This document shows positions 1,118 through 16,785 of a DNA stretch of 64,000 nucleotides, piece after piece. This stretch comes from Prevotella sp. (lineage in GTDB: Bacteria > Bacteroidota > Bacteroidia > Bacteroidales > Bacteroidaceae). The notes beneath the pieces were generated by a model that searched no databases, was not told where the DNA came from, and worked only from the letters and a program-made list of their open reading frames with translations. Each line of letters begins with the position of its first letter. Position 1 is the first letter of the stretch. Position numbers and translations under genes: made by a program. Location: positions 216,938 through 280,937 of the forward strand of contig JAFUFJ010000009.1 of assembly GCA_017469955.1 (NCBI GenBank), given 5' to 3'.

Positions 1118-2401
1118 TCAATGATATTTGAGAGATTTTATTGCATTGCTGGTTTCCATGGCTGCCTTAATTGCCACATCCATGTTGTAATATTCCCAAT
1201 CAGCAAAACGGCCAGTAGTATAGAAACCGTAAGTTGAAAGAAATTTCTTCAACTCGGTTATCATCTGACGTGTCCGCCCATTTTGAATTGGATAGGTGTA
1301 CGGATTGAAGAGATGGGTAATGTAGCGGGGTGACAATGGCATCTGCCGAAGGTTTTGCCTGATGACATCCTCTGAGATGGCATCAGTAAACTCAATCGTT
1401 CCTGTCATTGTGTGGCTCTCCCCATTGTTGGTCGGAGAGAAATTGCCTGTGCAAATAATGCGGTGAGCCTCGTACTGATTGCTGGGCAAATAAACCCAAC
1501 TATATGGATTTGGGGAAATTTCGCAAAAGACAGTAGTTGTTCCGTGATATTCGAGGACTTCTATCTCTTGCGAGAATCCGCACAACTCCAGATTCTTCAG
1601 CAACGTTGGGAGTTGCTTGATATTTCCGCAAAACACGACATAATCGAACGACTCACATCCGGCACCTGCGCAGACCTGCCACGTTCCATCTGGCATTCTC
1701 TCTATCTCGCATACATCAGCATTACATTTGATAGAGAGGCCATGGGAGAGGCGGTCTATGATAAACTGTGAGCCATTGTTCTTCTCATACCAAAAAGAGC
1801 TATGCACAAATGATTTCTCTTCAACTTGCTTGAAATTGTTGTATATGATTTCCTCAACCGTGGGCATCGGCAATTTGCCTTCTAACCAGGTAATGGGTAC
1901 GTCGTTGAGTCGTCTGCGCCATATCTTTTCATTGTATGGCTTGAAATATATGTCATAGAGTGTCTGTCCGAAACGTTGTACTAAGAATTCCTCAAAATTG
2001 TCAATCCCCGCAATGTTGTTTCCTGCCTTGCTCATCAATACCAAGTCATGCGCTATCTTTCTGACGATTTCGTCTGGCAGCATATATGCGTGGTTTTCTA
2101 TAGGATAGGGAATGATTTGCTGATTGCCCATCCACACCACCGAATTCCGCTCTGCCTTGACAAACTCCGCATCCTTATCGAAGAAGCCCCAAAACCATTG
2201 CAGCACATCCTCATACTTGGAATTGAACACATGGCCTCCACAGGTGTGAAATAAGCCTCCATGCACACGCTGGCATCTCAGCAAACCGCCAGGGACTGAT
2301 TCTTTCTCGAAAACTGTAACAAAGAACTGTTCTCTCAACAAATGGGCTAACGAAAGCCCTGAGATCCCCCCCCCAATTATGGCTATTCTCCGTTTCATCA
2401 T
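1118..2401 (-). CDS. UDP-galactopyranose mutase-like FAD-dependent enzyme
   Basis: 427 residues. The N-terminus IAIIGGGISGLSLAHLL (residues 6-22) is an FAD dinucleotide-binding motif, followed by VFEKESVPGGLLRC and GGHVFNSKY, as in UDP-galactopyranose mutase and related amine-oxidase-fold sugar enzymes. Such enzymes isomerise nucleotide sugars, for example UDP-Galp to UDP-Galf, for cell-surface glycans; the exact substrate is inferred only. The start was placed at ATG 2401 (MMKRR) because it overlaps the stop of the upstream glycosyltransferase; the longer frame from 2458 lies inside that gene. Gly10-12 are encoded by an uninterrupted run of nine G (2366-2374), so any one-base slip would truncate the protein near its start. 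Confidence 0.75.
   Translation of the reverse strand: MMKRRIAIIGGGISGLSLAHLLREQFFVTVFEKESVPGGLLRCQRVHGGLFHTCGGHVFNSKYEDVLQWFWGFFDKDAEFVKAERNSVVWMGNQQIIPYPIENHAYMLPDEIVRKIAHDLVLMSKAGNNIAGIDNFEEFLVQRFGQTLYDIYFKPYNEKIWRRRLNDVPITWLEGKLPMPTVEEIIYNNFKQVEEKSFVHSSFWYEKNNGSQFIIDRLSHGLSIKCNADVCEIERMPDGTWQVCAGAGCESFDYVVFCGNIKQLPTLLKNLELCGFSQEIEVLEYHGTTTVFCEISPNPYSWVYLPSNQYEAHRIICTGNFSPTNNGESHTMTGTIEFTDAISEDVIRQNLRQMPLSPRYITHLFNPYTYPIQNGRTRQMITELKKFLSTYGFYTTGRFADWEYYNMDVAIKAAMETSNAIKSLKYH
2366..2374 (-). repeat. G9 homopolymer in flavoenzyme gene
   Basis: Nine uninterrupted G on the coding strand encode the three Gly of the FAD-binding motif. With eight G the frame stops within about ten codons (CGT TAG). 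With ten it continues off-frame for about fifty codons before a stop. The present length is the functional one. Confidence 0.9.
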
Positions 2402-3366
2402 GATATTTTGTTTAAGATGTCTTTCAACATGGCCACACGGTTTGAGGAATAGTGACATGAAAGGTACTCGCTGTATTTCTCCATGTCTGCGCTCTCGTTG
2501 CGGGCTTTATCTAACTTTAACTCGAAATCGCAATAACTGTCACACGAAGAAGCAATATGTTCCATGTTGTAGTATTTCGTGTCAACATTCTCTGGGTAGC
2601 GTGCTATCACGTGACACCCTGATGCTATTAGCTCCAGCCATCGGGGAGTAACCTGGTTGTATCCATTACGCCACTCATGTTCGCCATCTATGCCCTGGGT
2701 CGCATATAATGCACATCTGGCCTGCTGGGTAAGATGCATATAGTCTTCTCTCGTAATGATATTTCCGACCAACTCTCCCGTTGATGTGTAATATGAAAAA
2801 CTCTTCGTGTCTTTTCTGAGAACATACACAAAATCGGGGTGCTTTTTCGCATATTCCTTAAGGAACCCCATGAGAACAGAATTCTGACGGCCCATCAACA
2901 CTAAATCGAATTTCTTCTCGAAGCGTGTTTCTCCCGTAATCTTATATTTGTCTGATATGGACAGAGGCAAGTGAGCAATAGGCAAGCGGGTGTTGTTTTC
3001 CTTTAAGAACACATACGCTTCCAAACTGGATATAAGCACTTGTTTATGCTTGCTGTATGCCCGCTCAAAGCCAGCAATCTTTTTTTTTGTCAGATTAAAA
3101 TCTATAATGCAGGGTAACACCTTGTGGTTGTTCCAGAAATTATAGTTACCTGCACTTAGATCATAACGAAACAGGTTGCCTTTGCCTAACAATACAATGT
3201 CGTCAAGTATAGGGAGTCTGAACGCGTGTGGATTGACTGATACTTTGGGTTCTTCCCATATAGGAATACCCATCTCCCTTGAGAAAATGTCTTCCCACTC
3301 AAAAACTATCTGCCAAAAGAAACGTTTGTCTATGGCACGACATGAAGAGATTCTTTCAATTTTCAC
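2398..3366 (-). CDS. Glycosyltransferase, GT-B fold (GT1/GT4-like)
   Basis: 322 residues from a GTG start; no in-frame ATG lies upstream. The C-terminal half has FDLVLMGRQNSVL, consistent with the start of the nucleotide-sugar domain, and PRWLELIASGCHVIARYPEN, the conserved Glu plus small-residue segment that contacts the donor in GT-B enzymes. It likely adds one sugar to the lipid-linked repeat unit on the cytoplasmic face. It begins 15 bp after the GT2 stop and its stop overlaps the next start, so it is translated as part of the operon. A run of nine A (3080-3088 on the minus strand) lies in its middle. Acceptor and donor are unknown. Confidence 0.75.
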   Translation of the reverse strand: MKIERISSCRAIDKRFFWQIVFEWEDIFSREMGIPIWEEPKVSVNPHAFRLPILDDIVLLGKGNLFRYDLSAGNYNFWNNHKVLPCIIDFNLTKKKIAGFERAYSKHKQVLISSLEAYVFLKENNTRLPIAHLPLSISDKYKITGETRFEKKFDLVLMGRQNSVLMGFLKEYAKKHPDFVYVLRKDTKSFSYYTSTGELVGNIITREDYMHLTQQARCALYATQGIDGEHEWRNGYNQVTPRWLELIASGCHVIARYPENVDTKYYNMEHIASSCDSYCDFELKLDKARNESADMEKYSEYLSCHYSSNRVAMLKDILNKIS

Positions 3367-3381
3367 AATTATAGAATTTTA

Positions 3382-4428
3382 TCAAAATCTAAGATAACCA
3401 GTATGTATTCTTACACCAAGCTTTGCGAGCAGTATAGATAAAATCAGTTGAGGATATTTAATGAAAAAGAGTTTAACATTATATATACCAAGGTAAGACA
3501 AGCAATCCTTAACAAAAGACATTTTTCTTCTCAATAGTTCCGAGATGGCATAAGGAGCTATAAAATTGTAAACGAATTTTTGAGCGGCCCGTGTTCTCTC
3601 AATCCTACACAAACTGAAAATATTGGAGAAAAAACGATTTTGCAATGGTTGTCTATTTGAGCCAGAGTAAACGCCTCCATCATGGATACGATAACATCCC
3701 ATGTTATCTTTCATTAGGTAACAACAACCTTGAGTAAAGAGTGCAAAGTAAAGCATCATATCAATTTTTACATCATATTCCGTATATTTGGATTTGTTTA
3801 AGGCATCGGCCTTATACATTGTAGTCAAGATTTTTGTAAAGAAATGTTCTCGCAAATAGGAATCCATACTAAGAATGATACCGTCACCCTCAAATTTTAT
3901 GTTCAGTTCATGTGGTCTATAAGAAGACTTGTTTTGTATCCATTCAGTATAGTCATGAACACAAAATGCGACATTTTCATTGTTTTCCAAAACACCTACT
4001 TGTCTTTCCAGCTTCTCCGCTGCCGTCCAATAGTCATCTCCCTCGCATAGGGCAATGTACTTTACATCTATGTCCCATTCCGCCCACAAGTGGGCTTTAT
4101 CCTTGCGCTGCGAATAGTAGTTCTCCTTGAGGAAGATGACGAGGAAATAGCAATTGGGGTTGGTGCGGTGGTGGGCGTAGACGAAATGGGCCTCGTCGGT
4201 GGTCCATTCGCTTCGTCCTTCTTCAACCTCTACCTGGAAATGCTGGTCAAGATATTGACGGATGACATCTTGCTCTCCGTCGGTGCTGGCATCGTCGCAG
4301 ATGATAGCGAGGAAAGGGAAAGTGGTCTGTTGCATACAGAAGCCGTTCATGGCATCGGTGATGTAGGCAGACTGGTTGTAGGTCATGCAATGGATGCTGA
4401 CCAGGAAATCAGGGTGCTGGGGTATCAT
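3382..4428 (-). CDS. Family 2 glycosyltransferase
   Basis: 348 residues. The N-terminal GT-A domain shows VSIHCMTYNQSAYITDAMNG, then CDDASTDGE (nucleotide-binding Asp pair), and CEGDDYWT near residue 135 (the metal-binding DXD plus the Trp usual in this group). C-terminal residues form a less conserved region with basic and hydrophobic stretches that may associate with the membrane. The start ATG overlaps the flippase stop by four bases (ATGA), indicating translational coupling. Its core is the best match in the window to the decayed GT2 at 559-1116, suggesting that the two are paralogues. The sugar transferred is unknown. Confidence 0.85.
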   Translation of the reverse strand: MIPQHPDFLVSIHCMTYNQSAYITDAMNGFCMQQTTFPFLAIICDDASTDGEQDVIRQYLDQHFQVEVEEGRSEWTTDEAHFVYAHHRTNPNCYFLVIFLKENYYSQRKDKAHLWAEWDIDVKYIALCEGDDYWTAAEKLERQVGVLENNENVAFCVHDYTEWIQNKSSYRPHELNIKFEGDGIILSMDSYLREHFFTKILTTMYKADALNKSKYTEYDVKIDMMLYFALFTQGCCYLMKDNMGCYRIHDGGVYSGSNRQPLQNRFFSNIFSLCRIERTRAAQKFVYNFIAPYAISELLRRKMSFVKDCLSYLGIYNVKLFFIKYPQLILSILLAKLGVRIHTGYLRF

Positions 4429-5867
4429 TTCTTAAGAATGTTTTCTTTAAATATACTCAACGAATAAGACATGTCTCTATTATTAAACACATATGACAAT
4501 CCTATATATATAAGTATCCCAAGGATAGTTCCACTTACCAATTGCAACAGATAGGAAGAAAAATGAATGGACAGCAAGAACACAATGCTGCCCATGAAAA
4601 TTGAAGACAGCAGACTGGGCGTCAGATCCTTCATCTGTGTAAGATATCCGACACCTATCAATTTTCCTGTATAAAAAGTGTTCACAATAAGGCATATCAA
4701 AGAACCTGCAATATTTCCTATACACAACCAGAATACGCCGTAACGTATTGCTGTAAAAAGGATTGACAGACCGATAATTTTCTTGATGATTTCCAGTCGC
4801 AAGAACAAGTCTGAACGTCCACGAACCATCAGCAAGTTGAGGTTTAACGCGTGGATAGGATACCACATCATGGAGAAGCATATCACCTGCAACAAAGGAA
4901 TTGCCGGTGCCCATTTTTCAGTAATCAACAACAACACGAAAGGCTTGGCTAAAGCTGCAAGAAGCATCATAATAGGGAAAACCACAAATCCTGACAAACG
5001 GATCATTTTTCTATAAACCGACGCCAAAAGATATTTGTCATCCTGAACCTTTGCCAACACGGGAAATGTCACTTTTGAGAGCATATTTGAAGCCGTGGTC
5101 GAAGGTATTGAAGCGTAGCTTCGAGCCTTGTCATAGTAGCCCAAATCAGATGAAGAGAACTTTTTACCTATTATCAGTGGAGCCAGATTATTATAGGCAG
5201 TATCAAGCAAGCCAGAAAGCATGATTTTCGAGCCATAGGCAAAGAATTCCTTAAATGATTTCCATGAAAAATTTAGTCCAGGAAACCAATGTTGAAATCG
5301 CCAATACATCAAACCGCGGACAAGGAGGCCCAAGAAGTTAGGATATATCAACGACCAAACACCAAATCCCATAAATGCAAGTATTATCGACACGACACCT
5401 ATTACAATCGTTGAGGTGACATGAATAATACTCTTAAGCTTAAAATTAAGTTCTATTGACAATTTCGTACCCTGAACTGCTATGAAAGACTGTAGAAACA
5501 TGTAAACGGCATTCACACAGACAATGTCTCTCAGCAATGGTTGATCGTAGAAGCGAGCTATCCACGTAGAACTGAAAGCCAGCAATATACTAAAGAACAG
5601 AGATAAGGTGACGTTTGTTACATAAACAGTACTGTAATCAATTGGCTCTCTACTATTTTTACGCACTAATGCATTAGTGAATCCAGAGTCAATAAGTGTA
5701 TAAGATATTGCAAAGAATATACCAGTCATCGCTATCAGCCCATAATCTGAAGGCATCAACAAACGGGCAAGGATGACCCCCTGCACAAAGCCAAAAATCT
5801 GCAAAGAAAAGGATTCGGCAAAAGTCCAAAGAAGACCGTTTACCGTTTTTTGACGTATTTCGGACAT
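4425..5867 (-). CDS. Polysaccharide flippase (Wzx-like, MATE/PST superfamily)
   Basis: 480 residues, almost entirely hydrophobic with about 12-14 predicted membrane spans. The N-terminus (TVNGLLWTFAESFSLQIFGF, then LARLLMPSDYGLIAMTGIFF) is typical of the polysaccharide transporter family that flips undecaprenyl-linked repeat units across the inner membrane. ATG 5867 is preferred over TTG 5873; it lies 2 bp after the stop of the upstream gene. Its presence among glycosyltransferases says the operon builds a surface polysaccharide or O-antigen-like glycan by the flippase/polymerase route. A polymerase is not recognised inside this window. Confidence 0.88.
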   Translation of the reverse strand: MSEIRQKTVNGLLWTFAESFSLQIFGFVQGVILARLLMPSDYGLIAMTGIFFAISYTLIDSGFTNALVRKNSREPIDYSTVYVTNVTLSLFFSILLAFSSTWIARFYDQPLLRDIVCVNAVYMFLQSFIAVQGTKLSIELNFKLKSIIHVTSTIVIGVVSIILAFMGFGVWSLIYPNFLGLLVRGLMYWRFQHWFPGLNFSWKSFKEFFAYGSKIMLSGLLDTAYNNLAPLIIGKKFSSSDLGYYDKARSYASIPSTTASNMLSKVTFPVLAKVQDDKYLLASVYRKMIRLSGFVVFPIMMLLAALAKPFVLLLITEKWAPAIPLLQVICFSMMWYPIHALNLNLLMVRGRSDLFLRLEIIKKIIGLSILFTAIRYGVFWLCIGNIAGSLICLIVNTFYTGKLIGVGYLTQMKDLTPSLLSSIFMGSIVFLLSIHFSSYLLQLVSGTILGILIYIGLSYVFNNRDMSYSLSIFKENILKK

Positions 5868-5869
5868 CT

Positions 5870-6799
5870 TCAATATTGCTGTTTGTTTAACAAAGCCTCA
5901 AACTTGAGTCCCTGAAGAGCATTTGCTATCTCTCTTCCCTGCTGGCGACCTACTCGTTGAAAAGCATTTTTCTGTTGCTCCTCAGCAATGGCTTTCACCT
6001 CATCCTGAAATACAGGTGAAGCGACGTTCAGTTCCCCAGATTTAAGTTTAGCCTCTACGCTTTGCTGAGTACCGTTAACAACTTCATCATTAACTTGTTT
6101 TTGGAATTTGGAAAACAAATCAAGCACGGCTTTTCCTGTCTTGTCCGTATGTTTTACAAAATAAATACACTCATCATAGTCTGCTTTCTTCTCATAGATA
6201 GCATGAGCAGAAGCTCCATCATGTTCAGCACATACCTTTACCGCAAACAGTTCAGACCCCAAACTCCAGTCAATATTGCTAGCATCTTTGTCTGCTACTG
6301 GCGTATAGTTTGCATCACGATAATATATATTGAGGATATAAAGAGCACCCATAGCCTGCAAAAGGTTATCAATGGTGCCTTTCTTCAAATTGTTGGCTCT
6401 GTCATGCTTTACTGCTTGATAAGCGATTTGCCATTTTGATGAGCTTGTGCCGCGTTTAAAAGACTTATGCAAAGGTGTCAGTACCCTGTCTTCTTCTTTT
6501 TCAAGATAAAGGAACGGGGAGGTAACGAAAATTTTCTTCTGGTCAATCTTCCATTTGTCGTGAAGAAGACCCAAACAATCTGTATCGAAATATAGATCTT
6601 TGCCGCTCGGTTTCGTGCCGCCATTTGCGTGATAAAGTTCTTTCGACAACGCTTCACATTCTATGGCTGTTCTTACCAGAAGATCGCTAATTTTTGAAGA
6701 ATACACTTTAAGTTGATCATCATCGATGTGTACAACTTCTGCTAATGCAAGAAATTCTTTTTCTATCCGCTTATATGCGTTCCAAAATAATTGCGTCAT
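5870..6799 (-). CDS. Unknown protein, HEPN-like helical fold suspected
   Basis: 309 residues, soluble and mostly helical, with no signal peptide or membrane segment. A segment around residue 130 (SKWQIAYQAVKHDR) followed by a helical stretch rich in Leu and Ala (NLLQAMGALYIL) resembles the core of small HEPN-type proteins, but no textbook R-x4-6-H motif is obvious. The C-terminus is charged and coiled-coil-like. It sits 46 bp after the PIN-like gene and directly before the flippase (2-bp gap to ATG 5867), so it is co-transcribed with both. A role with the PIN-like neighbour in stress or phage response is inference; a structural role in glycan export cannot be excluded. Confidence 0.6.
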   Translation of the reverse strand: MTQLFWNAYKRIEKEFLALAEVVHIDDDQLKVYSSKISDLLVRTAIECEALSKELYHANGGTKPSGKDLYFDTDCLGLLHDKWKIDQKKIFVTSPFLYLEKEEDRVLTPLHKSFKRGTSSSKWQIAYQAVKHDRANNLKKGTIDNLLQAMGALYILNIYYRDANYTPVADKDASNIDWSLGSELFAVKVCAEHDGASAHAIYEKKADYDECIYFVKHTDKTGKAVLDLFSKFQKQVNDEVVNGTQQSVEAKLKSGELNVASPVFQDEVKAIAEEQQKNAFQRVGRQQGREIANALQGLKFEALLNKQQY

Positions 6800-6845
6800 T
6801 ATCCCAAATATCTATTTCCTTAGATCTATAGTTCCTTTTAAAGGT

Positions 6846-8234
6846 TTAGTCATCTTTATCCATAAACTCGCGATACTCTCTGTAGCAGTCTATGCACAAA
6901 CCCATTTCATTCGCATACCCGTGCGCTCCGCATCTAATGCATATGTCATCTTCCTTCGGCTCGTCAAACTCAAGGGTATCGCTAAAATCAAATTCTTTTA
7001 CTATTTCTCCACCTTCGCATTCTATCTCGGAATAGTTTACAATCCTTGCAGGATATTCCCATAGACGGAAGGTTAACGTTATCTCATGTCCATTATCACA
7101 TTCTATATATTCGTGATGAGTATATACCATCTCGTCCCCCATCTCCCGTTCATCGGAGTATTCTCCATCCCAATCCCAGTCGATTTCATCCTTTCTGATT
7201 ACAATAATCCCATCCTTTTCATCTTCATCACTACAGCAGGCCTCGCAGTTTACAACCAATACATCATCCCCATTTTTATAATGTTTGAGCCGTTGTTCAT
7301 ATTCATTCCTTATCAGCACCCTCTTCACCGCCTCCAATTTGGAGAACAAAGGCAGTTCTGAACTATCTTTGTATCTCTGCTCCAGCTCACTAATAAAGCC
7401 TTTCAAGCTGTACATCCATATCAGTTGACCTGTCTCGTCTTGAAACTCCTTCAGCAGTTCATGCCTCGGGACATCAGTCGGCTTATTTCCGTCAAAGTGA
7501 TACCAGTCGTTCTTCAAGTCGTTGCACACGAAGATTATGGGTACATTCTTGTCTTTAGCATATGCTATAATCTCTTTCCAAATCAAGAGGTCGCCATACC
7601 GTTGCAAGCCTTTCTTCTTTTGGTTAAAGGGTGGAGCATCTTCATAGCCTGGTGGAATCAGATTACGATAACGAAACTCTCCCTCCTTAACGATGCTCAT
7701 CTGCTGTTGAAAAGAAAAGGGCGTGCCTTGCATCAAGTTGTCTACTAACTTGTTGACAATATCGTCTGCTATCTCTTGCTGTAATGAAGCTTTCCGCTTT
7801 GCGTACTGTTCTTTGATTTCTTTTCTAATCAGCTGCAATTTTTCTCTAACCACCTTATCAGCGACTTTAATCTTATCAAGCGACGATGGTTCAAGGTATG
7901 GATGATAGGTGTCATTGTCATTATCCTTCAAGAACGCATCCATCTCTGCCTCATAGCGGTTGACATATACGCCTTGCTTGGGTAAACCATAGGGAGCAAA
8001 AGAATTTTCAATCAGTGCCTCCCTATTCTTCTTATACTCGTAAACTACATGAGCGGGAAGCCACAGTCGGCTTTTCACAATGCCAAAAATCTCCAAGAGC
8101 GTTTTCTTTGGTTCCTCGGCCATGCAGTAGAGGTTGCCTAAAGTGGAGGTATCGAACACGATGGTCGCCTTAGACCACAGCGCATTCTTTTCATCCTTGC
8201 TTAGTTTGTAGTATTCAATCTTGTTCATTAACAT
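6846..8234 (-). CDS. PIN-like nuclease domain protein with C-terminal zinc ribbon
   Basis: 462 residues. Residues 23-300 look like a PIN-like domain of the large type (PIN_8/DUF4935): TIVFDTSTLGNLY with the first acidic residue at Asp28, IPPGYEDAPPFNQKKKG, RYGDLLIWKEIIAYAK with a central Asp, and IIFVCNDLKNDWY near the third acidic position. PIN domains are metal-dependent ribonucleases. A middle acidic region carries a CEACC cluster, and the last 30 residues hold two CxxC pairs (CIRCG and CIDCY) that form a probable zinc ribbon. ATG 8234 or 8228 could start it. It is transcribed with the polysaccharide genes, 32 bp after the dehydrogenase, which is an unusual place for such a nuclease. Confidence 0.75.
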   Translation of the reverse strand: MLMNKIEYYKLSKDEKNALWSKATIVFDTSTLGNLYCMAEEPKKTLLEIFGIVKSRLWLPAHVVYEYKKNREALIENSFAPYGLPKQGVYVNRYEAEMDAFLKDNDNDTYHPYLEPSSLDKIKVADKVVREKLQLIRKEIKEQYAKRKASLQQEIADDIVNKLVDNLMQGTPFSFQQQMSIVKEGEFRYRNLIPPGYEDAPPFNQKKKGLQRYGDLLIWKEIIAYAKDKNVPIIFVCNDLKNDWYHFDGNKPTDVPRHELLKEFQDETGQLIWMYSLKGFISELEQRYKDSSELPLFSKLEAVKRVLIRNEYEQRLKHYKNGDDVLVVNCEACCSDEDEKDGIIVIRKDEIDWDWDGEYSDEREMGDEMVYTHHEYIECDNGHEITLTFRLWEYPARIVNYSEIECEGGEIVKEFDFSDTLEFDEPKEDDICIRCGAHGYANEMGLCIDCYREYREFMDKDD

Positions 8235-8266
8235 TTTATTTGAGCGAGCATCTCGATATTCTAATC

Positions 8267-9313
8267 CTATGTGCCACTTTTTATCAGCGAGGCATAATCA
8301 ACGAGATTGTTCTCGGCAAGAGCAACGTCCTTACCTAATCCCCTGCGTTTAGCTTCTTCGTAGATATAGTTAGCAAAATTGATGTCGATGTAAGAAAGTC
8401 CAACGGAATTGAAATATATAAATTCATCATCATTCTCTCGACCTACCTTTGTTCCGGCAATAAGCTCGGAGAGATTGGCGTGGATGTCTTCATCATGCAA
8501 CAGGTCTTCTTTATACATGCGGCAGAGAGTCTGAGAGCGGTGCTTCACAACCTCCCATTCGTCACATACAATCTTGTCCGCTTTCTGGGCAACACCATAT
8601 TCATCTTCCCAACCACCGACATGAATGTAAAGACCACCCTTGGTGATGTCAGTAGCTTTGAGAACAGGGCTTTGGGCGCTGATGGCAGTAACGATGATGT
8701 CCGCTCCGCTTGCACAGAGATGGGAGTTGTTGTCGCAAGTGACAAACTTAACATCAGGAACGATGTCTTTAAACTTATCAATAAAGCCTTGCTCAATCTC
8801 AGTATTGAGAGAACACACTCTGCACTCTTTTATGGAGGGGAACAAGTGCTTCAAAAGAGTAAAGTGCATACGAGCCTCTTCTCCGGCACCAATAATCCCG
8901 ATTTTCTCAACTTTAGAAGGTGCCAGATACTTAGCCGCAGTACATCCGACAGCTGCAGTGCGCATCTTCGTAGAAAGGGTTCCATCAATCACAGCTACAG
9001 GGAAACCTGTCTCCAACTCGGAGATGAGCATGATTCCCGTTACATTCTGGACTCCTTTGGGAGCATTTGAAGGGAACACCGACACCCACTTCATGCCGTA
9101 AATCTTCTCATTAATAAGAGATGCGGGCATACAATTGATGCGATTCTGGGTCGCTTCATCAAATATCTGGGAGATCTTGTCCGGCATGATAATGTCGCCA
9201 TCAAGATACTTGCGAAAGGAATCTTCAATGATTCCACAAATAGCATCTGCATTGCCTTTGAACATCTCAGCAACTTCTTCCTGGCTGATGATCTTAATAG
9301 AAATATTGCTCAT
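8267..9313 (-). CDS. Ornithine cyclodeaminase / mu-crystallin family NAD-dependent enzyme
   Basis: 348 residues. The Rossmann motif KIGIIGAGEEARMHF sits near residue 137, preceded by the family segment GTLSTKMRTAAVGCTAAKYLA and followed by ADIIVTAISAQSPVL. The family includes ornithine cyclodeaminase, alanine dehydrogenase and SbnB-like enzymes that oxidise N-substituted amino acids; substrate cannot be decided by eye. It begins 24 bp after the third ATP-grasp ligase and is probably part of the same biosynthetic step, supplying or modifying an amino acid that the ligases attach. That pathway role is inference from context. Confidence 0.85.
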   Translation of the reverse strand: MSNISIKIISQEEVAEMFKGNADAICGIIEDSFRKYLDGDIIMPDKISQIFDEATQNRINCMPASLINEKIYGMKWVSVFPSNAPKGVQNVTGIMLISELETGFPVAVIDGTLSTKMRTAAVGCTAAKYLAPSKVEKIGIIGAGEEARMHFTLLKHLFPSIKECRVCSLNTEIEQGFIDKFKDIVPDVKFVTCDNNSHLCASGADIIVTAISAQSPVLKATDITKGGLYIHVGGWEDEYGVAQKADKIVCDEWEVVKHRSQTLCRMYKEDLLHDEDIHANLSELIAGTKVGRENDDEFIYFNSVGLSYIDINFANYIYEEAKRRGLGKDVALAENNLVDYASLIKSGT

Positions 9314-9337
9314 AATATCTTGTGTTTTACTTTATTC

Positions 9338-10609
9338 TTAATTACCATACTTTTCATCATTCAGTTCATCTACCTCAAATAGTGTGAACAATAAATTATT
9401 ACCTGCCACATCCTCTACCTTTAGCTGCTCTAGCACCTCATGAATGGAGTACTGTAGTGCTTGCAAGTCATCATAGAGGATATGCAAGTAGCAGAACACC
9501 TGCTGTGCGGAGCCCCATTCCTGAATATCATCACCGGCAAAATGGACAGGGACAAAGGCATAAACATCATCCCTTTGCAGTACATCGTCGATTCCAATCA
9601 CCTTATCAATCCTCCCAGCATGTATGTGAACGGGAAGTATGCAGTATTTCTTGCCTGGTTTAATATCTTTCGGCATAACCGGAAATGACTCACCAAGAGC
9701 TACATGAATCAACTGATCGAGTTGGTCAATACCATAAAAATACTGAACAGGATAGTTGGTCATTGAGCCTCCAAAGCGATATCCCATTTCATTAAAAATA
9801 AACTTATCTGTGCCGTCGTAAAAAGCTTCTATCCAGATAGGCCCATCAGTGAATCCAGCTGATTCAAACATGTTCCGAACCTTGGCGTCAAGGAGTTCCA
9901 AATACTTTTGTATTCCACGGGAGGGGAAAAGTTGAAGTCCCATCACTGATGCACCAGTCGACGGGAATTTGACAGAATACTTATCTGAAATACCAGAAAA
10001 AAGACATTTACCATTAACCATTGTGTAATGAACAATCACGGCATCGTAGGGAATGTAATCTTCAACAAGTACACTGCCTGTGGGAGAAAACTCTTTAGCA
10101 TGGTTATACCCGTTACGGAGCTGCTCAGCATCGTGGCACACGGAAAAGCCACGACTGCCACTACCGTCCACTGGCTTGGTTATCACAGGGAAATCAACTC
10201 CCTGGAGAGAATCATCGGACAAATCATTCAAGTCATACTTTTTGGCGACTGGAACGTCATTGGCCATGCATAATGACTTGAACGACACCTTGCTGTCGCA
10301 ATAGAGCCACGTAGAACGTTTGCAATAGCAAGGTAGATGTAACCGTTCACAAAGGTCGAGCATACGATTGATGTTGAACTCATGAACACCCGTAGTGATG
10401 CCATCAACATGGTTGGTGATGCAAAGCCGCTCCAATTTATCTATGTCGGCAGTACTGACATCCCATGATTCGTCGGCGAAGAGTTTTGCCTGTGATAATT
10501 CTTTAGGCAAGTAGTCGGCAACAATCACATAATGTCCCAAATCCTTGGCACGACGGACTATTTCCACCGAGCCAATAGGCTTGCCTCCCAAAACCAGTAA
10601 TTTCTGCAT
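9338..10609 (-). CDS. ATP-grasp ligase, third of three
   Basis: 423 residues. The N-terminal MQKLLVLGGKPIGSVEIVRRAK is the pre-ATP-grasp nucleotide-like fold. DFPVITKPVDGSGSRGFSV (about residues 140-158) is the ATP-binding loop, and IWIEAFYDGTDKFIFNEMGYRFGGSM carries the metal-binding Glu and a conserved Asn/Arg region. ATP-grasp enzymes activate a carboxylate as an acyl phosphate and join it to an amine. It starts 22 bp after the second ligase and is clearly paralogous to it (KPVDSRGSRG versus KPVDGSGSRG). Substrate unknown; attachment of an amino acid to a sugar or to another amino acid is inferred. Confidence 0.88.
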   Translation of the reverse strand: MQKLLVLGGKPIGSVEIVRRAKDLGHYVIVADYLPKELSQAKLFADESWDVSTADIDKLERLCITNHVDGITTGVHEFNINRMLDLCERLHLPCYCKRSTWLYCDSKVSFKSLCMANDVPVAKKYDLNDLSDDSLQGVDFPVITKPVDGSGSRGFSVCHDAEQLRNGYNHAKEFSPTGSVLVEDYIPYDAVIVHYTMVNGKCLFSGISDKYSVKFPSTGASVMGLQLFPSRGIQKYLELLDAKVRNMFESAGFTDGPIWIEAFYDGTDKFIFNEMGYRFGGSMTNYPVQYFYGIDQLDQLIHVALGESFPVMPKDIKPGKKYCILPVHIHAGRIDKVIGIDDVLQRDDVYAFVPVHFAGDDIQEWGSAQQVFCYLHILYDDLQALQYSIHEVLEQLKVEDVAGNNLLFTLFEVDELNDEKYGN

Positions 10610-10631
10610 ATATTCTTTTTGTTTATCTATT

Positions 10632-11897
10632 TTACGAATATTTGTCTAACAACTGAGCAGGCATGAATGAGTCAATCAGCATCTCCTCCCCTGACCTGCT
10701 GCGAACAGAAACCGCTTGCTGGAACTTACTGATGGCCGCTATAATATCCTTGATACTGCTGCCGAGCAAATCAACTTCAGCAAAACGTTGGCTGACCGTG
10801 GCCGTCCACTGCACCTCTTCACCCTCAACATAGCGTGAGAACAAGGCCTTTACCCTCTCATCCTGCCGATACTTCTCAAGTCCGCTTATCTTATCTATGA
10901 CACTATTTTTCAGTACCGGAAACAGAATGGCCGCTTTATGCCCGTTGAGCAAATAGGCATTTTCTGGGAAAATACCTTCGGAAGGGAAATGTCCCGTCAA
11001 GGCATACTCCACCATCCACTCACAGATGTCGAATCCGAATGTTTCATTCAGCATCCGCTCATATTCCACCCCAGGGAAACGAAGACCCGGGTCGAAGAAG
11101 AAGAACTGGCCATCGCGCACAAAGCCCTGCATGAAGACAGGACCATTGGTGATTCCGGCCTCTGCAATCATCTTCTCTACCTGAGAGTGAGCATTCCGAA
11201 GATACTCTTCGGTATGACGTGAGGGCGATATAGAACAGTTGACAAGTTTCTGCAAGCCCAATGACTCGCTGCCCCTGTAGCTGTCGCAGGTGCGCTCCAA
11301 ATGGGGTTCTCCATTGACCACGAAGTATGTCACCTGAAATTCATCGCAATCGCCCAAGTATTGTTCAATGAGTATCTCTCCATTGGATGACTCGGACTTT
11401 GCAAATGCCATAGCCTCATCGAGAGAGCAATAGTCGTAGCAGACCGACTGTCCACGTGAGCCTCGACTATCCACTGGTTTCACGAACACGGGGAAGCTTA
11501 TTTTCTGCTCACGGACATCATCTTCCGTATAGTCAGGTATCACGTCCACTCCATTCTCCCTACAAAGCTTCTTGAAGGCATTTTTGTTGGTGAAGCGGTA
11601 GAACTGCCCGGGGGTACCAAGACAAGGTTTGTTCAGTCTTGTGCAAAGCTCGGAATAGGGTATCTGACAGGGGTCGATGAAACCGGCAATCACACCGTCA
11701 ACAAGGTTTTCGTTGCAGTACGCTTCCAGACCATCAACATCCCTGACATTGACGTCCCATGCCTCATCGCAGATGGCTTTGCATGGTGAGTTGGCAAGAT
11801 AATCTGTGACTATGGTGTAATGTCCCATTCGCTTTGCTGCTTCTACGAGTTTCAGATGCTGGGCTGCTCCACCCAGTATTAATATTTTCTTTTTCAT
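10632..11897 (-). CDS. ATP-grasp ligase, second of three
   Basis: 421 residues from ATG 11897, which overlaps the preceding stop as ATGA and has GGAGGG about 7 bp upstream. The longer frame from 11912 starts inside the upstream gene. MKKKILILGGAAQHLKLVEAAKRMG is the N-terminal domain, SFPVFVKPVDSRGSRGQSV the ATP-binding loop, and GQFFFFDPGLRFPGVEYERM the position where related enzymes have a metal ligand Glu followed by Arg-Gly-Gly. Here that segment reads FDPGLRFPG, so the usual Glu-x-N pair is altered. This may mean a changed or weak activity. It lies between two intact paralogues. Confidence 0.85.
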   Translation of the reverse strand: MKKKILILGGAAQHLKLVEAAKRMGHYTIVTDYLANSPCKAICDEAWDVNVRDVDGLEAYCNENLVDGVIAGFIDPCQIPYSELCTRLNKPCLGTPGQFYRFTNKNAFKKLCRENGVDVIPDYTEDDVREQKISFPVFVKPVDSRGSRGQSVCYDYCSLDEAMAFAKSESSNGEILIEQYLGDCDEFQVTYFVVNGEPHLERTCDSYRGSESLGLQKLVNCSISPSRHTEEYLRNAHSQVEKMIAEAGITNGPVFMQGFVRDGQFFFFDPGLRFPGVEYERMLNETFGFDICEWMVEYALTGHFPSEGIFPENAYLLNGHKAAILFPVLKNSVIDKISGLEKYRQDERVKALFSRYVEGEEVQWTATVSQRFAEVDLLGSSIKDIIAAISKFQQAVSVRSRSGEEMLIDSFMPAQLLDKYS

Positions 11898-13216
11898 GCT
11901 GCAGCCCTCCATTCTTTGGCGGTGCGCAGCACACTTGTTTCTACTCTATCAGTTAATGTCTCGTCATTTTGTCTGTAACCAATGATTATCAGCCAAGTTT
12001 TACCCCCCCCTAAAATTCTGACATCCACATACTTACGGACATCAGTAAGAACTTTCTCCATTTCTCTTTCTTCTTCAAAACGAAGCACTAGTGTTCCGAT
12101 GGCATTGTTGGCCCCCTCAAAGGAGTCCACATGATCGCCAGCCTTGACCCAGAGGTCTTCTTCCACGACTTCGGCTTTCAGGTCTTTGCTGAGTTCCAGG
12201 CTGTCGAAAACACCAGCTTTATCGGCATGAAGAATAATCTCTGCCCAATGGCAGTTATAAGGTTTCTGCTCGATAGGTTCAAGGATAGGGTCGCCCACCA
12301 TAGCACGGGTAATGGCAGTAATCATATCCACACCCGTAGCATAGCGCAACATCTCGCACAAACGGTTTCCACCACCACGTGGGGTCAATTCCATGATGTA
12401 TGGTTTCCCATTGGGAGCTACTCGAACTTCAATGTTATAGACCACTGTCTTCAGATTAAGCAGCGTTATTAGACGCTGTATCTCAGATGTCAGATACGCT
12501 TCCTGTTCCTTGGTGAATGTGGAAGGCCAACTATACGCTGCCGGAGTATATGGGTTGGTGGCATTGAGGTCGAATCGCTGAGCACAGAAACTGGTGAACA
12601 CAAGTTTTCCATCCACCGACATGCTGTCAGTATCAGAAGAGCAGCCCTGCTTGTCAATAAACTCCTCAACGAGGATATGGCCAGAGATAGAATGTTCCAT
12701 CGCATACTCCAAAGCCGGTTTCAAGTTCTCTTTTCTGTCAACACGGGTCACGCCTTTACTTCCAGCCGCATCCGTGGGCTTTACAATCACAGGCCAAGGA
12801 CACCAATCGGAATCCTCCATTGCAGCCTCAATACTGTCAAAGCCCTTTGCCTGAGGCACATTAAAACCATTCTTGGCGAGAAAAGCACGGAACTTATCTT
12901 TGTTCTGCAAGATCTCCACACTCTCAAATGGGCCAAAGCTGGGCAATCCCATCTTGTTCTGCACATAGCTTGCAGCAACCACACCGGGGTCACAAGCAAA
13001 TGACATGATACCATCGATCTGGAGCCGCTGTGCTTCTTTCAAAACGGCCTCCTTGTCAATGATACTGACGTTGCAATACTCATCGCTCCAAGTATGAGCG
13101 ATGTTGTTGGGCAGGTAGTCTGCCGTTATCACATAGTATCCCTGTTTGTGGGCTGCATCAATCACCGGTTTAAGGTATCGCAAGCCGCCAAGGAGCATCA
13201 GTTTCTTTTGCTTCAT
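11894..13216 (-). CDS. ATP-grasp ligase, first of three, with G8 tract near C-terminus
   Basis: 440 residues. MKQKKLMLLGGLRYLKPVIDAA is the N-terminal domain. PVIVKPTDAAGSKGVTRV is the ATP-binding loop. YNIEVRVAPNGKPYIMELTPRGGGNRL holds the metal-binding Glu, the second Glu and the RGG motif, all intact. It starts 2 bp after the aminotransferase stop. Residues 403-405 are three Gly encoded within a run of eight G (12003-12010). The tail after this run (about 36 residues) looks unlike the rest of the fold. Losing or gaining one G would end the protein within a few residues of the run and remove the stop/start overlap with the next ligase. Confidence 0.88.
   Translation of the reverse strand: MKQKKLMLLGGLRYLKPVIDAAHKQGYYVITADYLPNNIAHTWSDEYCNVSIIDKEAVLKEAQRLQIDGIMSFACDPGVVAASYVQNKMGLPSFGPFESVEILQNKDKFRAFLAKNGFNVPQAKGFDSIEAAMEDSDWCPWPVIVKPTDAAGSKGVTRVDRKENLKPALEYAMEHSISGHILVEEFIDKQGCSSDTDSMSVDGKLVFTSFCAQRFDLNATNPYTPAAYSWPSTFTKEQEAYLTSEIQRLITLLNLKTVVYNIEVRVAPNGKPYIMELTPRGGGNRLCEMLRYATGVDMITAITRAMVGDPILEPIEQKPYNCHWAEIILHADKAGVFDSLELSKDLKAEVVEEDLWVKAGDHVDSFEGANNAIGTLVLRFEEEREMEKVLTDVRKYVDVRILGGGKTWLIIIGYRQNDETLTDRVETSVLRTAKEWRAAA
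12003..12010 (-). repeat. G8 homopolymer in ATP-grasp gene
   Basis: Eight uninterrupted C on the plus strand, read as G on the coding strand, in the context TTTAGGGGGGGGTAA. The same 15 bases occur at the acyltransferase tract (14761-14768). In the present length the ligase frame continues. With nine G the next codon is TAA; with seven the frame meets TGA after a few codons. Confidence 0.9.
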
Positions 13217-13218
13217 TC

Positions 13219-14328
13219 TTATTTTACCACTAATTCAAGTACTCTGTTTATATCTTCCTCACTCAGCTCATGGTGCATCGGCAGGCAGATAACTTCGTTG
13301 GCTATCTTTGTCGCCACAGGCAGGTTCTCAGGTGCTGCACTCGGAAGGCCACGATAGGTGCTGAAGGTACTGATGAGGGGATAGAAATAGCGACGGCCGA
13401 GGACGTTCTTCTCCTTCATTTCAAAGTAGAGCTGGTCGCGCGTCTTGCCATATTCCTCCGCATTGATGAAGATGGGGAAGTACGAGTAGTTATGACGAAC
13501 ACCTGGCATATCGTCAAAGAAACGGATGCCAGGAACGTTTCTAAGAGCCTCACGATACCGCTGTGCCACTTTCTGACGGGCAGCAATGGCGGAATCCACC
13601 TGCTTGAGGTTGAGAAGTCCGTAGGCAGCACGCACCTCATCGACCTTGCTGTTGATGCCTGGGGCCACCACCTCAGTCTCTCCAGCAAATCCGAAGTTCT
13701 TCAGGTAGTCTATGCGCTTCTTTGTGACTTCATCGTGCATCACGAGCGCACCGCCCTCTAAAGTGTTGTACACCTTGGTGGCATGGAAACTCAGCGTGCT
13801 CATGTCGCCAGCATTCAGCACGCTCTCGCCATCCACCTCCACGCCAAAGGCATGGGCGGCATCGTAGATGACCTTCAGGCCGTACTTGTCAGCAATCTCC
13901 TGAATAGCCTTCATATTCACCGGCTTGCCATAGCAATGCACAGGCATGATGGCCGTGGTCTTGGGCGTGATGGCCGCCTCAATCTTGTTGGGGTCTATGC
14001 CGCAAGTGCTTTCCTCAATATCCACGAACACAGGTTTGCAGCCGTTCCACCAGATGCTGTGCGTGGTGGCCACAAAACTATAAGGCGTAGTAATAACTTC
14101 GCCTGTTATTCTTAAAGCCTGCAAAGCCGTGAGCAACGGCAGTGTGCCGTTAGTAAACAGGCTGATGTACGGCACTTTCAGGTACTCTGCCAAAGCCGTC
14201 TCCAACTGCTTATGAAACGAGCCGTTGTTGGTAACCCACTTGCTGTCCCAAATCTCTTGAAGCATCTTGTGGAATTCTTCCAAATCAGGCAAGAGGGGAG
14301 ATGTGACTGTAATTATGTCTTTATTCAT
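13219..14328 (-). CDS. DegT/DnrJ/EryC1/StrS-family aminotransferase
   Basis: 369 residues from ATG 14328, chosen because it lies one base after the stop of the acyltransferase frame and begins the conserved protein; the upstream extension to 14418 has no family features. YISLFTNGTLPLLTALQAL, then IYDAAHAFG (Asp contacting the cofactor), and SFHATKVYNTLEGG with the PLP lysine at about residue 185. Family members transaminate keto-sugars to amino sugars for surface glycans, or act as sugar-modifying PLP enzymes. It is directly upstream of the three ATP-grasp ligases, so an amino sugar is a plausible acceptor for them (inference). Confidence 0.9.
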   Translation of the reverse strand: MNKDIITVTSPLLPDLEEFHKMLQEIWDSKWVTNNGSFHKQLETALAEYLKVPYISLFTNGTLPLLTALQALRITGEVITTPYSFVATTHSIWWNGCKPVFVDIEESTCGIDPNKIEAAITPKTTAIMPVHCYGKPVNMKAIQEIADKYGLKVIYDAAHAFGVEVDGESVLNAGDMSTLSFHATKVYNTLEGGALVMHDEVTKKRIDYLKNFGFAGETEVVAPGINSKVDEVRAAYGLLNLKQVDSAIAARQKVAQRYREALRNVPGIRFFDDMPGVRHNYSYFPIFINAEEYGKTRDQLYFEMKEKNVLGRRYFYPLISTFSTYRGLPSAAPENLPVATKIANEVICLPMHHELSEEDINRVLELVVK

Positions 14329-14329
14329 A

Positions 14330-15383
14330 TCAAAAATGGAGTCTTCTTGAACTTTGAAATGTCCTGTCATACCATTGAAAGAACCATTTTTCAACCGTAT
14401 GTATACGAATTTGATCAATTGTCACACAGACAAGGAATATCATTATCACTGCACCCACTGCATAAAGGGGATAAAAGGCCGTATCATAATGTCCCACACA
14501 ATCTACGACATCCCGCCAAATCCAACGTCTCATCCTGTCACTATTTGCATGAATCAGCAAAACTCCAAATGTTGATGATGCAATTATATTAATCCAACGC
14601 GAATAAGGCATACGGATTCTTCTGAAGTAATTAAATAAAACCGTCGATACAAAAACAGCCAATATCTTATTTGAATCTGAGACAAAGAAATAGTAGTTAT
14701 GCCTATGAAACAACAATAGCACCACGACACTTCCTATTGCAACCAGCAAAGCCAGAATTACCCCCCCCTAAATTACTTATTTGACTCAACCATTTTGGTT
14801 CATAAAGACGGATGTAGGAACCTAACAAATAGAGCACAGAAAACCAAGATACATAGTTCATTTTGACTTCTATCAACCCTGTTGATCCCATGAGCGTATA
14901 TATTGAGAGTGTCAAGAGGAGTAAATTTCTGTGTAGCATTTCCCCCATCCCCCGTATGAGAACATTGAGAAACGGTATCAACAAGAAAAACAGTAAGTAG
15001 CATGAGGTAAAACCATCAGACACAGACCAAATGGGGCATATCATGTGTTTTATCAATTTCAAGGACAAAGTCGAATACCCAAAGAGCAGGAAAACGCAGT
15101 CGATGACAAAGTTATAGAACATCACTTCCAAAAGCAGCTTAAGAAACTTTCTAAGTGTAATTTCGGACTTGCACATGAAATATCCTGTAATCAGCACAAA
15201 ACAGTTAATGCCCGTCTTGCCCCACATCCCGAAAATATAGTAAAACCATGAAGCTTTTGTAAGAGGATGCTCATCCATGTACTGAGTCAAGCCAGAATTT
15301 ACCACATAGTGATGGGCGACTATCATCAGCATTACGAGAATGCGATACAATTCAATGTTGCTATTACGTGCCTTTCGTTCCAT
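14330..15383 (-). pseudogene. Acyltransferase 3-family membrane protein, out of frame at a G8 tract
   Basis: The first frame (ATG 15383 to 14703) begins MERKARNSNIELYRILVMLMIVAHH, the start of OatA/WecH-type acyltransferase 3 proteins with the conserved His pair, and runs through several membrane spans to SQISNLGGG. A second frame (about 14760 to 14330) carries the remaining spans (ILALLVAIGSVVVLLLF) and the C-terminus. They are separated only by eight G at 14761-14768. Removing one G joins them into one protein of about 350 residues, the normal family length. Either a phase-OFF state of a contingency gene or a base error in a homopolymer. It is the first gene of the polysaccharide operon and would acylate the glycan or its precursor. 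Confidence 0.85.
14761..14768 (-). repeat. G8 homopolymer that breaks the acyltransferase frame
   Basis: Eight uninterrupted G on the coding strand. Upstream codons read AGT AAT TTA GGG GGG GGT. With seven G the frame continues GTA ATT CTG GCT TTG into the second half. With eight it runs into a 20-residue off-frame tail, and with nine it meets TAA at once. Confidence 0.9.
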
Positions 15384-16133
15384 TCCACTATTCTCGAGTC
15401 AATCATTCCAACTCAGAAACGTGTAAAACAATGAAGATTAAGAAAAATTCTTTTCTTTTTGTGCCGGTTCGCTTTTCAGTGGTTCTTCGGGGGCTGTTCG
15501 GGGCATTATACAGTCTGGTTTCCCACGCAGACGGAAAGACGTATGGTGGTGAAACGCAGTTGATAATGTTCCGAAAGATGCCTCCGCTTAGGAATATGCT
15601 CACATATTCGCAGACCACAACTTATCGTATGCTGTTTTTGTTATAACCGTGCAAAGATAAGAAATTCTTCGGGAAAACCGCACTTTAGTGACTAAAAAAT
15701 CGACGACCGGTTTCGTTTTTTTGATTTATGCCTGCCCTGTTGCCAGTGGAGGCATTGTCACAAAACTCATCCATAATATTTACAAATGGTTTCAAATTTT
15801 TTCTTTTTCCGCCGATATTTTCCGCTTCTTTGAAAACTTCCGGGAAGAACGACAAGGTGAACGGATTTTCAAGCCACACGTCTACCTTTCTGATTGTCAA
15901 AAGAATACCGATTTCTTATGACTTATATTGATGTTTTTCACTTTAACAAAACTATCCTTTCTAACTAAGAATGACATGGTTTATCCGTATGAACGACACC
16001 TCTTCAGGTGCAGTTTCACGACATTTGTACATGAGAAAGGTCAGCTTTCTCGGCGAGGAGGGTCTGGGACGATGACCATAAGCTGTTGTCTTCTTCGGAT
16101 GAACCCATATCATCCTCTTTGAAAATGGATATT
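15384..16133. other. Gene-poor stretch upstream of polysaccharide operon
   Basis: About 750 bp with no convincing gene. Short frames of 60-77 codons exist on both strands (for example 15685-15900 minus), but none shows a recognisable domain. A TATCTTTG element at 15652-15659 on the minus strand is the best promoter candidate for the operon and would leave a leader of about 265 nt. No inverted-repeat pair that would make an invertible promoter was found by eye, and no UpxY-like antiterminator gene is present. Confidence 0.6.
15652..15659 (-). promoter_or_regulatory. Candidate -7 element of polysaccharide operon promoter
   Basis: TATCTTTG on the minus strand matches the Bacteroidota TAnnTTTG element, but no TTTG is present at the usual 19-20 nt distance upstream. 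It is the only good match between the trp terminator and the first operon gene. Confidence 0.4.
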
Positions 16134-16189
16134 AAAAAGGCTGTCTTGTAAAACATTTTCAAGATAAAAATTTTACAAAACAGCTTTTT
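16134..16189. terminator. Bidirectional terminator after trp operon
   Basis: An inverted repeat AAAAAGGCTGTCTTGTAAAA / TTTTACAAAACAGCTTTTT (one bulge, one mismatch) lies 30 bp past the trpG stop, with T runs on both sides. It separates the trp operon from the polysaccharide region. Confidence 0.8.
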
Positions 16190-16221
16190 ATGTATGCTTG
16201 ACGACCAAGAAACTGTTGCCA

Positions 16222-16785
16222 CTACATGCGAAGCCAATTAGCCAATATCTGCCGTCCGTCGGGCGTAAGCACGCTTTCGGGATGAAACTGTATGCCGTGA
16301 ATGTCATATTCTCTGTGGCGCAGGGCCATGATCTCACCGTCGTCACTCTCAGCCGTCACCTCCAGACAGTCGGGGAAATGCTCGCGCGAGACTACCCATG
16401 AGTGGTAGCGTCCCATCGGTATGCGACGCGGAAGTCCCGAGAAGACAGGGTCATTTCCGAGGTTGGTGCCCTCGGTCTGCACGCCGTGGAAGACGTCGTT
16501 CAGGTTGGTAAGCCGTCCGCCAAACACCTCGCCTATGGCCTGATGGCCCAGACATACGCCGAAGATAGGCCGACGGCCTGCATAGGTTCTGATGACATCG
16601 AGCAGCAGTCCTGCCTCTGAAGGTATGCCAGGACCGGGGCTTAAGACAATCTTTTCAAAGGCACATAACGAGGACAGTTCAAACTGGTCGTTGCGCACAA
16701 CGGTCACCTTTGCTCCGAGCTCTTTTATCAGATGAGCAAGGTTATAGGTGAAAGAGTCGTAGTTGTCGATGATGACGATGTTCAT
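16222..16785 (-). CDS. trpG: Anthranilate synthase component II (glutamine amidotransferase)
   Basis: 187 residues from ATG 16785, which overlaps the trpE stop as ATGA; the longer frame is inside trpE. Class I glutamine amidotransferase: IVIIDNYDSFTYNL at the N-terminus, FGVCLGHQAIGE with the nucleophilic Cys, and GIQFHPES with the catalytic His and Glu. It releases ammonia from glutamine for TrpE to make anthranilate from chorismate. It is the last gene of the operon, followed by the terminator. Confidence 0.95.
   Translation of the reverse strand: MNIVIIDNYDSFTYNLAHLIKELGAKVTVVRNDQFELSSLCAFEKIVLSPGPGIPSEAGLLLDVIRTYAGRRPIFGVCLGHQAIGEVFGGRLTNLNDVFHGVQTEGTNLGNDPVFSGLPRRIPMGRYHSWVVSREHFPDCLEVTAESDDGEIMALRHREYDIHGIQFHPESVLTPDGRQILANWLRM

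Follow-up and report, generated by a model that had tools for sequence, protein, structure and literature searches.

A candidate poly-G contingency locus in an acyltransferase gene of a Prevotella surface-glycan cluster

The acyltransferase gene that comes first, in reading direction, in a minus-strand surface-glycan cluster of Prevotella sp. is divided between two reading frames by a run of eight G, and this run is interpreted here, with a probability of roughly 80%, as a poly-G contingency locus that renders the gene phase-variable. The copy in the assembly appears to be in the out-of-frame (OFF) state, as supported by comparison with its relatives. On balance we also lean towards the wider proposal that a multi-gene poly-G phasome diversifies one glycan cluster in Prevotella-type Bacteroidales, with G or C runs gained independently on many decorating enzymes; acyltransferases and some ATP-grasp ligases would then carry the runs, often with a stop triplet next to them, and a population of decoration combinations would, on the same balance, be the outcome. 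The window referred to below is the whole stretch of DNA that was analysed (64,000 nt), and positions are given in it unless a contig (C15) or a locus (L) is named.

The split acyltransferase gene and its cluster

Open reading frames were compared with the acyltransferase-3 family PF01757 by Pfam profile search (coordinates in table 1). The 5′ piece matched at 43.2 bits, above the cut-off of 31, and the 3′ piece at 19.3 bits (E 6e-4), under the cut-off, so that the two pieces jointly cover the listed stretches of the 326 profile positions and only the 5′ piece passes. These frames and matches bore out the sequence-only reading, by which eight G part two frames of one acyltransferase-3 protein. 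The 5′ piece departs from the family frame at the tract, and the TAA next to the run sits in a third frame, unlike either piece. When the 5′ and 3′ pieces were searched separately, the same close relatives were returned, with genes of about 350–360 codons, in agreement with the family length of about 350 residues proposed earlier; no other stop lies within the approximately 350 codons of the window gene. Acyl transfer to a surface sugar is the predicted activity, from the setting in a glycan cluster.

Table 1. Positions of the cluster, its tract-bearing genes and the tracts in the window.
Feature	Position	Strand	Basis or remark
Surface-glycan cluster, part inside window	1118-15383	minus	Pfam/ORF
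FAD/NAD-binding flavoprotein, 446 aa	1118-2458	minus	PF13450, PF01266, PF01593; holds G9
G9 tract	2366-2374	minus	in frame in flavoprotein
ATP-grasp ligase, 440 aa in window copy	11894-13216	minus	Pfam
G8 tract, 3′ end of ATP-grasp gene	12003-12010	minus	TAA directly after, in other frame
DegT/DnrJ/EryC1 sugar aminotransferase	13219-14328	minus	likely ATG 14326-14328
Acyl_transf_3 gene, 3′ piece, 139 aa, different frame	14330-14749	minus	ORF; PF01757 positions 225-324
Acyl_transf_3 gene, 5′ piece, 226 aa	14703-15383	minus	ORF; PF01757 positions 2-209
G8 tract, proposed slippage switch	14761-14768	minus (C8 on plus)	TAA directly 3′

The cluster encodes a flavoprotein, two glycosyltransferases, a Wzx-like flippase, one ORF without a family, a PIN-domain protein, an OCD (ornithine-cyclodeaminase-like) protein, three ATP-grasp proteins, the DegT aminotransferase and the acyltransferase. 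Glycan genes, with more glycosyltransferases and a GNAT acetyltransferase among them, also occupy the contig ahead of the window, as far as C15:199000 or beyond. The stop codon of the acyltransferase 3′ piece occupies 14330-14332 and the likely ATG of the DegT gene lies one base past it, so the two genes may be translationally coupled. Ahead of the window, the cluster contains another Acyl_transf_3 gene (L020:16157-17247, corresponding to C15 ~215156-216246), which an in-frame TAG and a frameshift interrupt and which has no G tract; it reads as ordinary decay beside the putative switch.

Two proteins encoded at 5870-8234, inside the glycan cluster, carried a PIN_8 domain in one case and no family in the other (309 aa), and PADLOC gave no match for either. 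Rfam at the gathering threshold returned two tRNAs only for the whole window, and a plasmid-record search with 13200-15600 gave 0 matches. A scan of 15300-16300 for an invertible promoter upstream of the acyltransferase gave weak inverted repeats only, four inverted pairs that include one of 18 nt (78%) enclosing 122 nt and a 24-nt hairpin with 7 nt between its arms. Promoter and terminator scans were uninformative.

Tracts in relatives of the acyltransferase

Twenty-seven genes made up the set of relatives. They were collected by similarity of protein or DNA, irrespective of tracts, and each is at least 40% identical to the 5′ piece over the part that aligns. Duplicates were left out (L055, equal to L029; L139 and L109, equal to L026; L103, equal to L031; L158, equal to L060; L162, equal to L058; L081, equal to L157), as were L034 (39% identity) and all others under 40%. 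L051 and L052 are nearly identical and were both counted, giving about 26 separate genes among the 27. L163 aligns over about 70 residues only, and the tree was built without L061 and L163.

Runs of 8–11 G or C were present in 10 of the 27 relatives, in five regions of the gene. Near the N-terminus, L031 carries a G11 in frame and L061 a G8 that is in frame there, L057 carries a G11 out of frame, and L164 carries a C10 that was called out of frame because the family frame offers no start codon. L159 has a C11 in frame at about codon 40, L157 a G8 in frame at about codon 271 and L165 a C8 in frame at about codon 307. The site of the window tract, at about codon 205, is shared by four species, two of them out of frame (the window copy with G8 and L026 with G9) and two in frame (L160 with G9 and L161 with G8). 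At the tract, the window copy, L026, L057 and L164 are therefore out of frame and the other seven tract-bearing relatives in frame, and a nearly full match to the PF01757 profile was obtained for L160, L161, L157, L159, L165 and L164. Slipped-strand phase variation with an OFF copy in the window, as proposed from the window alone, is supported by these differences in run length, phase and site.

The four bearers of the codon-205 tract form no clade in a tree that has many weak forks; L161 pairs with the tract-less L028 (100/99) and L160 with the tract-less L167 (93/80). At this site several tract-less relatives have a Trp-Gly pair, which is a plausible seed for tract expansion. The relatives without a tract (17/27) consist of 16 open genes and one remnant, L163. 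At L163:1545-2300 an acyltransferase remnant of about 91 codons runs into the frame of a different, hexapeptide-like acyltransferase (identified as such by eye), as in a rearranged gene.

Out-of-frame copies numbered 4 of 11 among genes with a tract and 0 of 17 among those without (p 0.016, or about 0.04, calculated by hand, when L057 is removed). A second lesion was seen in two of the 10 tract-bearing relatives, as an in-frame stop in L057 and a break after the tract in L061, which indicates that some tract-bearing copies are decaying, and such copies may be more prone to decay; among the tract-less relatives none is broken save the truncated L163. Among more distant relatives, L069 (from a Clostridia MAG) has a G9 out of frame, L045 a G8 in frame, and L097 is out of frame.

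The acyltransferase relative L057, with its N-terminal G11 and second lesion, comes from a Faecalibacterium prausnitzii record of 20 kb and 44% GC, in which a second run, G10, lies nearby and a short tandem repeat just past the gene (L057:9504 and L057:9988). Either horizontal transfer or contamination may lie behind this record.

Control families and reading-frame statistics

No tract was found in 27 relatives of the adjacent DegT family (29.3 kb), as against 10 of 27 acyltransferases (Fisher p 7e-4), or in the first 402 residues of 15 relatives of the ATP-grasp family. Agreement of frames across a run was examined in the set of loci collected, with 60 open codons required on each side. The frames disagreed across 13 of 27 runs of eight or more G, 0 of 10 G7, 1 of 21 G6, 21 of 180 G5 and 91 of 1043 G4 (p 3e-7; G4–6 pooled, 113/1244).

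The bases that follow the runs were counted in pattern-unbiased loci. A count of TA after the run over all loci (65/78) was discarded, many loci having been picked by a pattern that contains those bases, and the recount, from which 61 pattern-chosen loci were dropped, gave 19 of 35. In the same pattern-unbiased loci a stop triplet stood directly after 15 of 35 runs of G8 or longer, as against 152 of 2391 runs of 4–6. Such a stop would ensure truncation in one frame, and this may be its purpose.

Other long tracts of the genome

The genome consists of 22 contigs with 2.26 Mb and is 75.6% complete. Eight separate runs of at least eight G were counted genome-wide, five of them within 32 kb (C15:199568-231705) and in the coding sense of genes; among 200,000 random placements, 5 put as many runs into some interval of this length, so that the genome-wide clustering exceeds chance. 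The sequence-only reading had noticed one run, which is there, but it stands among at least five in the cluster. Two of the five lie outside the window, at C15:199568 and C15:210655. The first of the five is in a GNAT gene, toward its 3′ end, and the second is a G8 that splits a glycosyltransferase into 233 and 202 aa, for which four close relatives have open frames of 411–438 aa and no such tract. The C-terminal piece of this glycosyltransferase (L020:11037-11645) has an apparent internal duplication, with two LSVGRF stretches.

The G9 in the flavoprotein gene is taken by us to encode the GGG of a Rossmann nucleotide-binding motif. For the ATP-grasp gene with the G8 at its 3′ end, the comparison comprised nine rows and eight distinct relatives (L080 and L139 being the same locus), all of which stop at 401–402 aa, exactly where the G8 lies; the tail of the window copy terminates next to where the following ATP-grasp gene starts. 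Judged by these lengths, the tract would select between a family-length protein and one with a tail, and may change coupling or the C-terminus. Of the three runs outside these 32 kb, a C8 lies in the sense strand of one ORF, which is presumably MreB-like, a G8 is in frame in the gene of an Fn3_assoc/CHB_HEX protein of 1018 aa, and the last falls in an ORF of 136 aa with no assigned family.

Tracts across the genus and the order

Of 100 genomes sampled from the genus, 89 had runs of G8 followed by TA, and GGGGGGGGTA was counted 329 times in the 100 and its reverse 142 times. Across the order, 119 genomes, taken one per genus, held GGGGGGGGGTAA 69 times and its reverse 25 times, with GGGGGGGGGTAA present in 40 of the 119; the exact GGGGGGGGGTAA pattern had 0 occurrences in the window's own genome. 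Thirty tract loci were drawn from 30 genomes, of which 12 were Pfam-scanned and three named by overlap with known loci. At least six of the 30 were in Acyl_transf_3 genes (L091, L097, L101, L103, L109 and, with a score under the Pfam cut-off, L119) and two in TonB-receptor genes (L090 and L096).

In one genome (G006), a single cluster holds eight runs of G8 or longer in 40 kb, five out of frame, two in frame and one at a 3′ end. The tracts are in genes for three hexapeptide acyltransferases, a GNAT protein (just below cut-off), an MBOAT protein, an Acyl_transf_3 protein and two ATP-grasp proteins. For comparison, 20 tract-less ORFs chosen by us between L120:7047 and L121:19485 gave 0 acyltransferase matches and included five sugar transferases and five ATP-grasp proteins (one below cut-off). 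Among the genes examined in this cluster, tracts were thus carried by 6/6 acyltransferases, 2/7 ATP-grasp genes and 0/5 sugar transferases, and the contrast of 6/8 with 0/20 gave p 7e-5 with classes that were set after the data had been seen. Elsewhere in G006, runs were located in two GT2 genes, a TonB receptor, a DNA methylase and several large ORFs without a family, and one run had a kinase on one side and a BspA-type repeat frame on the other.

Proposed mechanism and alternative explanations

Replication slippage at the G8 would add or drop a G, and the change in length would move the acyltransferase between in-frame and out-of-frame states. In frame, a full membrane acyltransferase would be made and the surface glycan acylated; out of frame, a truncated protein would leave the glycan unacylated. 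At least five tracts in one glycan cluster, if they act independently, would yield cells with differing combinations of decorations. We infer that the length changes within a population and does so reversibly, that an out-of-frame copy lacks enzyme function, and that the substrate is the glycan. Eight G is short for fast slippage. As in phase-variable loci, the tracts are over-long and clustered, affect the frame and are associated with surface genes, and copies in different phase exist, between species. Taken together, the recurrent tracts, the occurrence of both phases at one site and the tract-free neighbour family favour phase variation over decay or assembly error.

Ordinary loss of the gene, of which a single homopolymer frameshift would be the mark, is unlikely. 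Decay does take place in this setting, as seen in the second acyltransferase of the cluster, broken without a tract, in the truncated L163 and in the second lesions of L057 and L061, but the reading frame of the window copy is otherwise open throughout, and its relatives repeatedly carry runs of eight or more, some of them at this site in full-length, in-frame genes, whereas the adjacent gene family has none in 27. Transcriptional or ribosomal slippage at the run, by which a fraction of full-length enzyme would always be made from unchanged DNA, is very unlikely. Long G runs are able to promote transcriptional slippage and a stop triplet directly after the run fits recoding too; a recoding site should, however, keep its frame offset, whereas the runs vary in length (8–11), base (G or C), position and phase, and in-frame copies exist at the same site. 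Slippage of this kind could coexist with slippage of the DNA.

A sequencing or assembly error at the homopolymer, with the true genome in frame, is very improbable, although homopolymers are the commonest error site in some long-read methods. Other assemblies have out-of-frame tracts too, L026 at the site of the window tract and L057, L164 and L069 at different sites, and the presence, recurrence and clustering of tracts are independent of their exact length; an error in one genome would not account for the tracts of the relatives. Neutral homopolymers arising from mutation bias, without function, are scarcely credible given the clustering of the G8+ runs, their concentration in acyltransferases (6 of 6, against 0 of 5 sugar transferases) among the examined G006 cluster genes, their absence from the 27 DegT relatives and their stop-adjacent context, even though G7 runs are not significantly over-represented in the window alone (8 overlapping matches, against 3.67 ± 2.45 in shuffles).

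Relation to known systems

Campylobacter and Neisseria provide well-known examples of homopolymer contingency loci (PMC6321876, PhasomeIt; PMC8355987; PMC5084427). The tracts described here resemble them, in the parts of these papers drawn upon, as homopolymer runs that are many per genome and lie on largely surface-related phase-variable genes, and differ in belonging to commensal Bacteroidota, in lying on glycan acyltransferases and in being candidates, known from out-of-frame copies. Phase-variable acyltransferase-3 genes have been described as Haemophilus influenzae oafA and Salmonella oafB (PMC9558356), which share with the present gene the AT3 superfamily and surface-sugar acylation and are switched ON and OFF. 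In the portion of that paper used here, oafA is tied to tetranucleotide repeats and oafB is epigenetic, whereas in the present case a G or C run lies within the coding sequence, at sites that vary by species.

In Bacteroides fragilis, a frameshift in a C run of the acetyltransferase of polysaccharide locus PSI/9 was reported, and slippage was suggested by the authors as a possible mechanism (PMC3090145, as excerpted); there, the run is only four C long and a single difference between strains is concerned, whereas runs of 8–11 recur here across species and genes. Within the literature search, much of it confined to sections of papers, the PSI/9 frameshift was the sole mention of homopolymer slippage found for Bacteroidales. 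Genes with homopolymers in Helicobacter canadensis switch their C-terminal sequence (PMC2823697, relevant section); the ATP-grasp tract is likened to these in that the homopolymer would give a different C-terminus rather than an OFF state, but it belongs to another phylum, and its effect is derived from the lengths of relatives.

Surface polysaccharides of Bacteroides vary randomly through inversion of capsule promoters (PMC11868660 and PMC12118408, in the passages cited). There, promoters of whole loci are inverted, whereas here single decorating enzymes would be switched by frame. The same part of PMC12118408 describes gut Bacteroidales as carrying several alternative capsule loci and names Prevotella as the exception. 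Inversion is described for the Akkermansia capsule in the section of PMC13343947 consulted. PMC2831843, on homopolymeric tracts in prokaryotes, is without mention of Bacteroid-, Prevotella or Porphyromonas. No paper on poly-G switching in Prevotella was found in a search that covered subscription literature sparsely and is accordingly weak evidence of absence. The mechanism is known, and that search found no account of it acting repeatedly on glycan acyltransferases of Prevotella-type Bacteroidales.

The lineage is a commensal one of gut and rumen with many poly-G tracts in surface genes, and the mechanism is not generally associated with such commensals. If phase variation is confirmed, it would provide Prevotella with a simple route to surface variation, for example against phages, and a functional counterpart to the promoter inversion of Bacteroides. 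An acyltransferase gene with a broken frame should not, in genomes of this kind, be labelled a pseudogene by default.

Additional loci in the genus

In G006, the DNA methylase ORF (L129:60-2714, N6_N4_Mtase) contains a G9 in frame and is a candidate for control of a phase-variable regulon. An ABC-3C-type three-gene system (AAA, MComp1 and CTD1) is located inside the poly-G glycan cluster of the same genome (L120:11230-15410). In another genome (G075), a G16 run at L135:2559 is followed by TAAAATGGA, with no long frames on either side, and is possibly a promoter or start-region tract.
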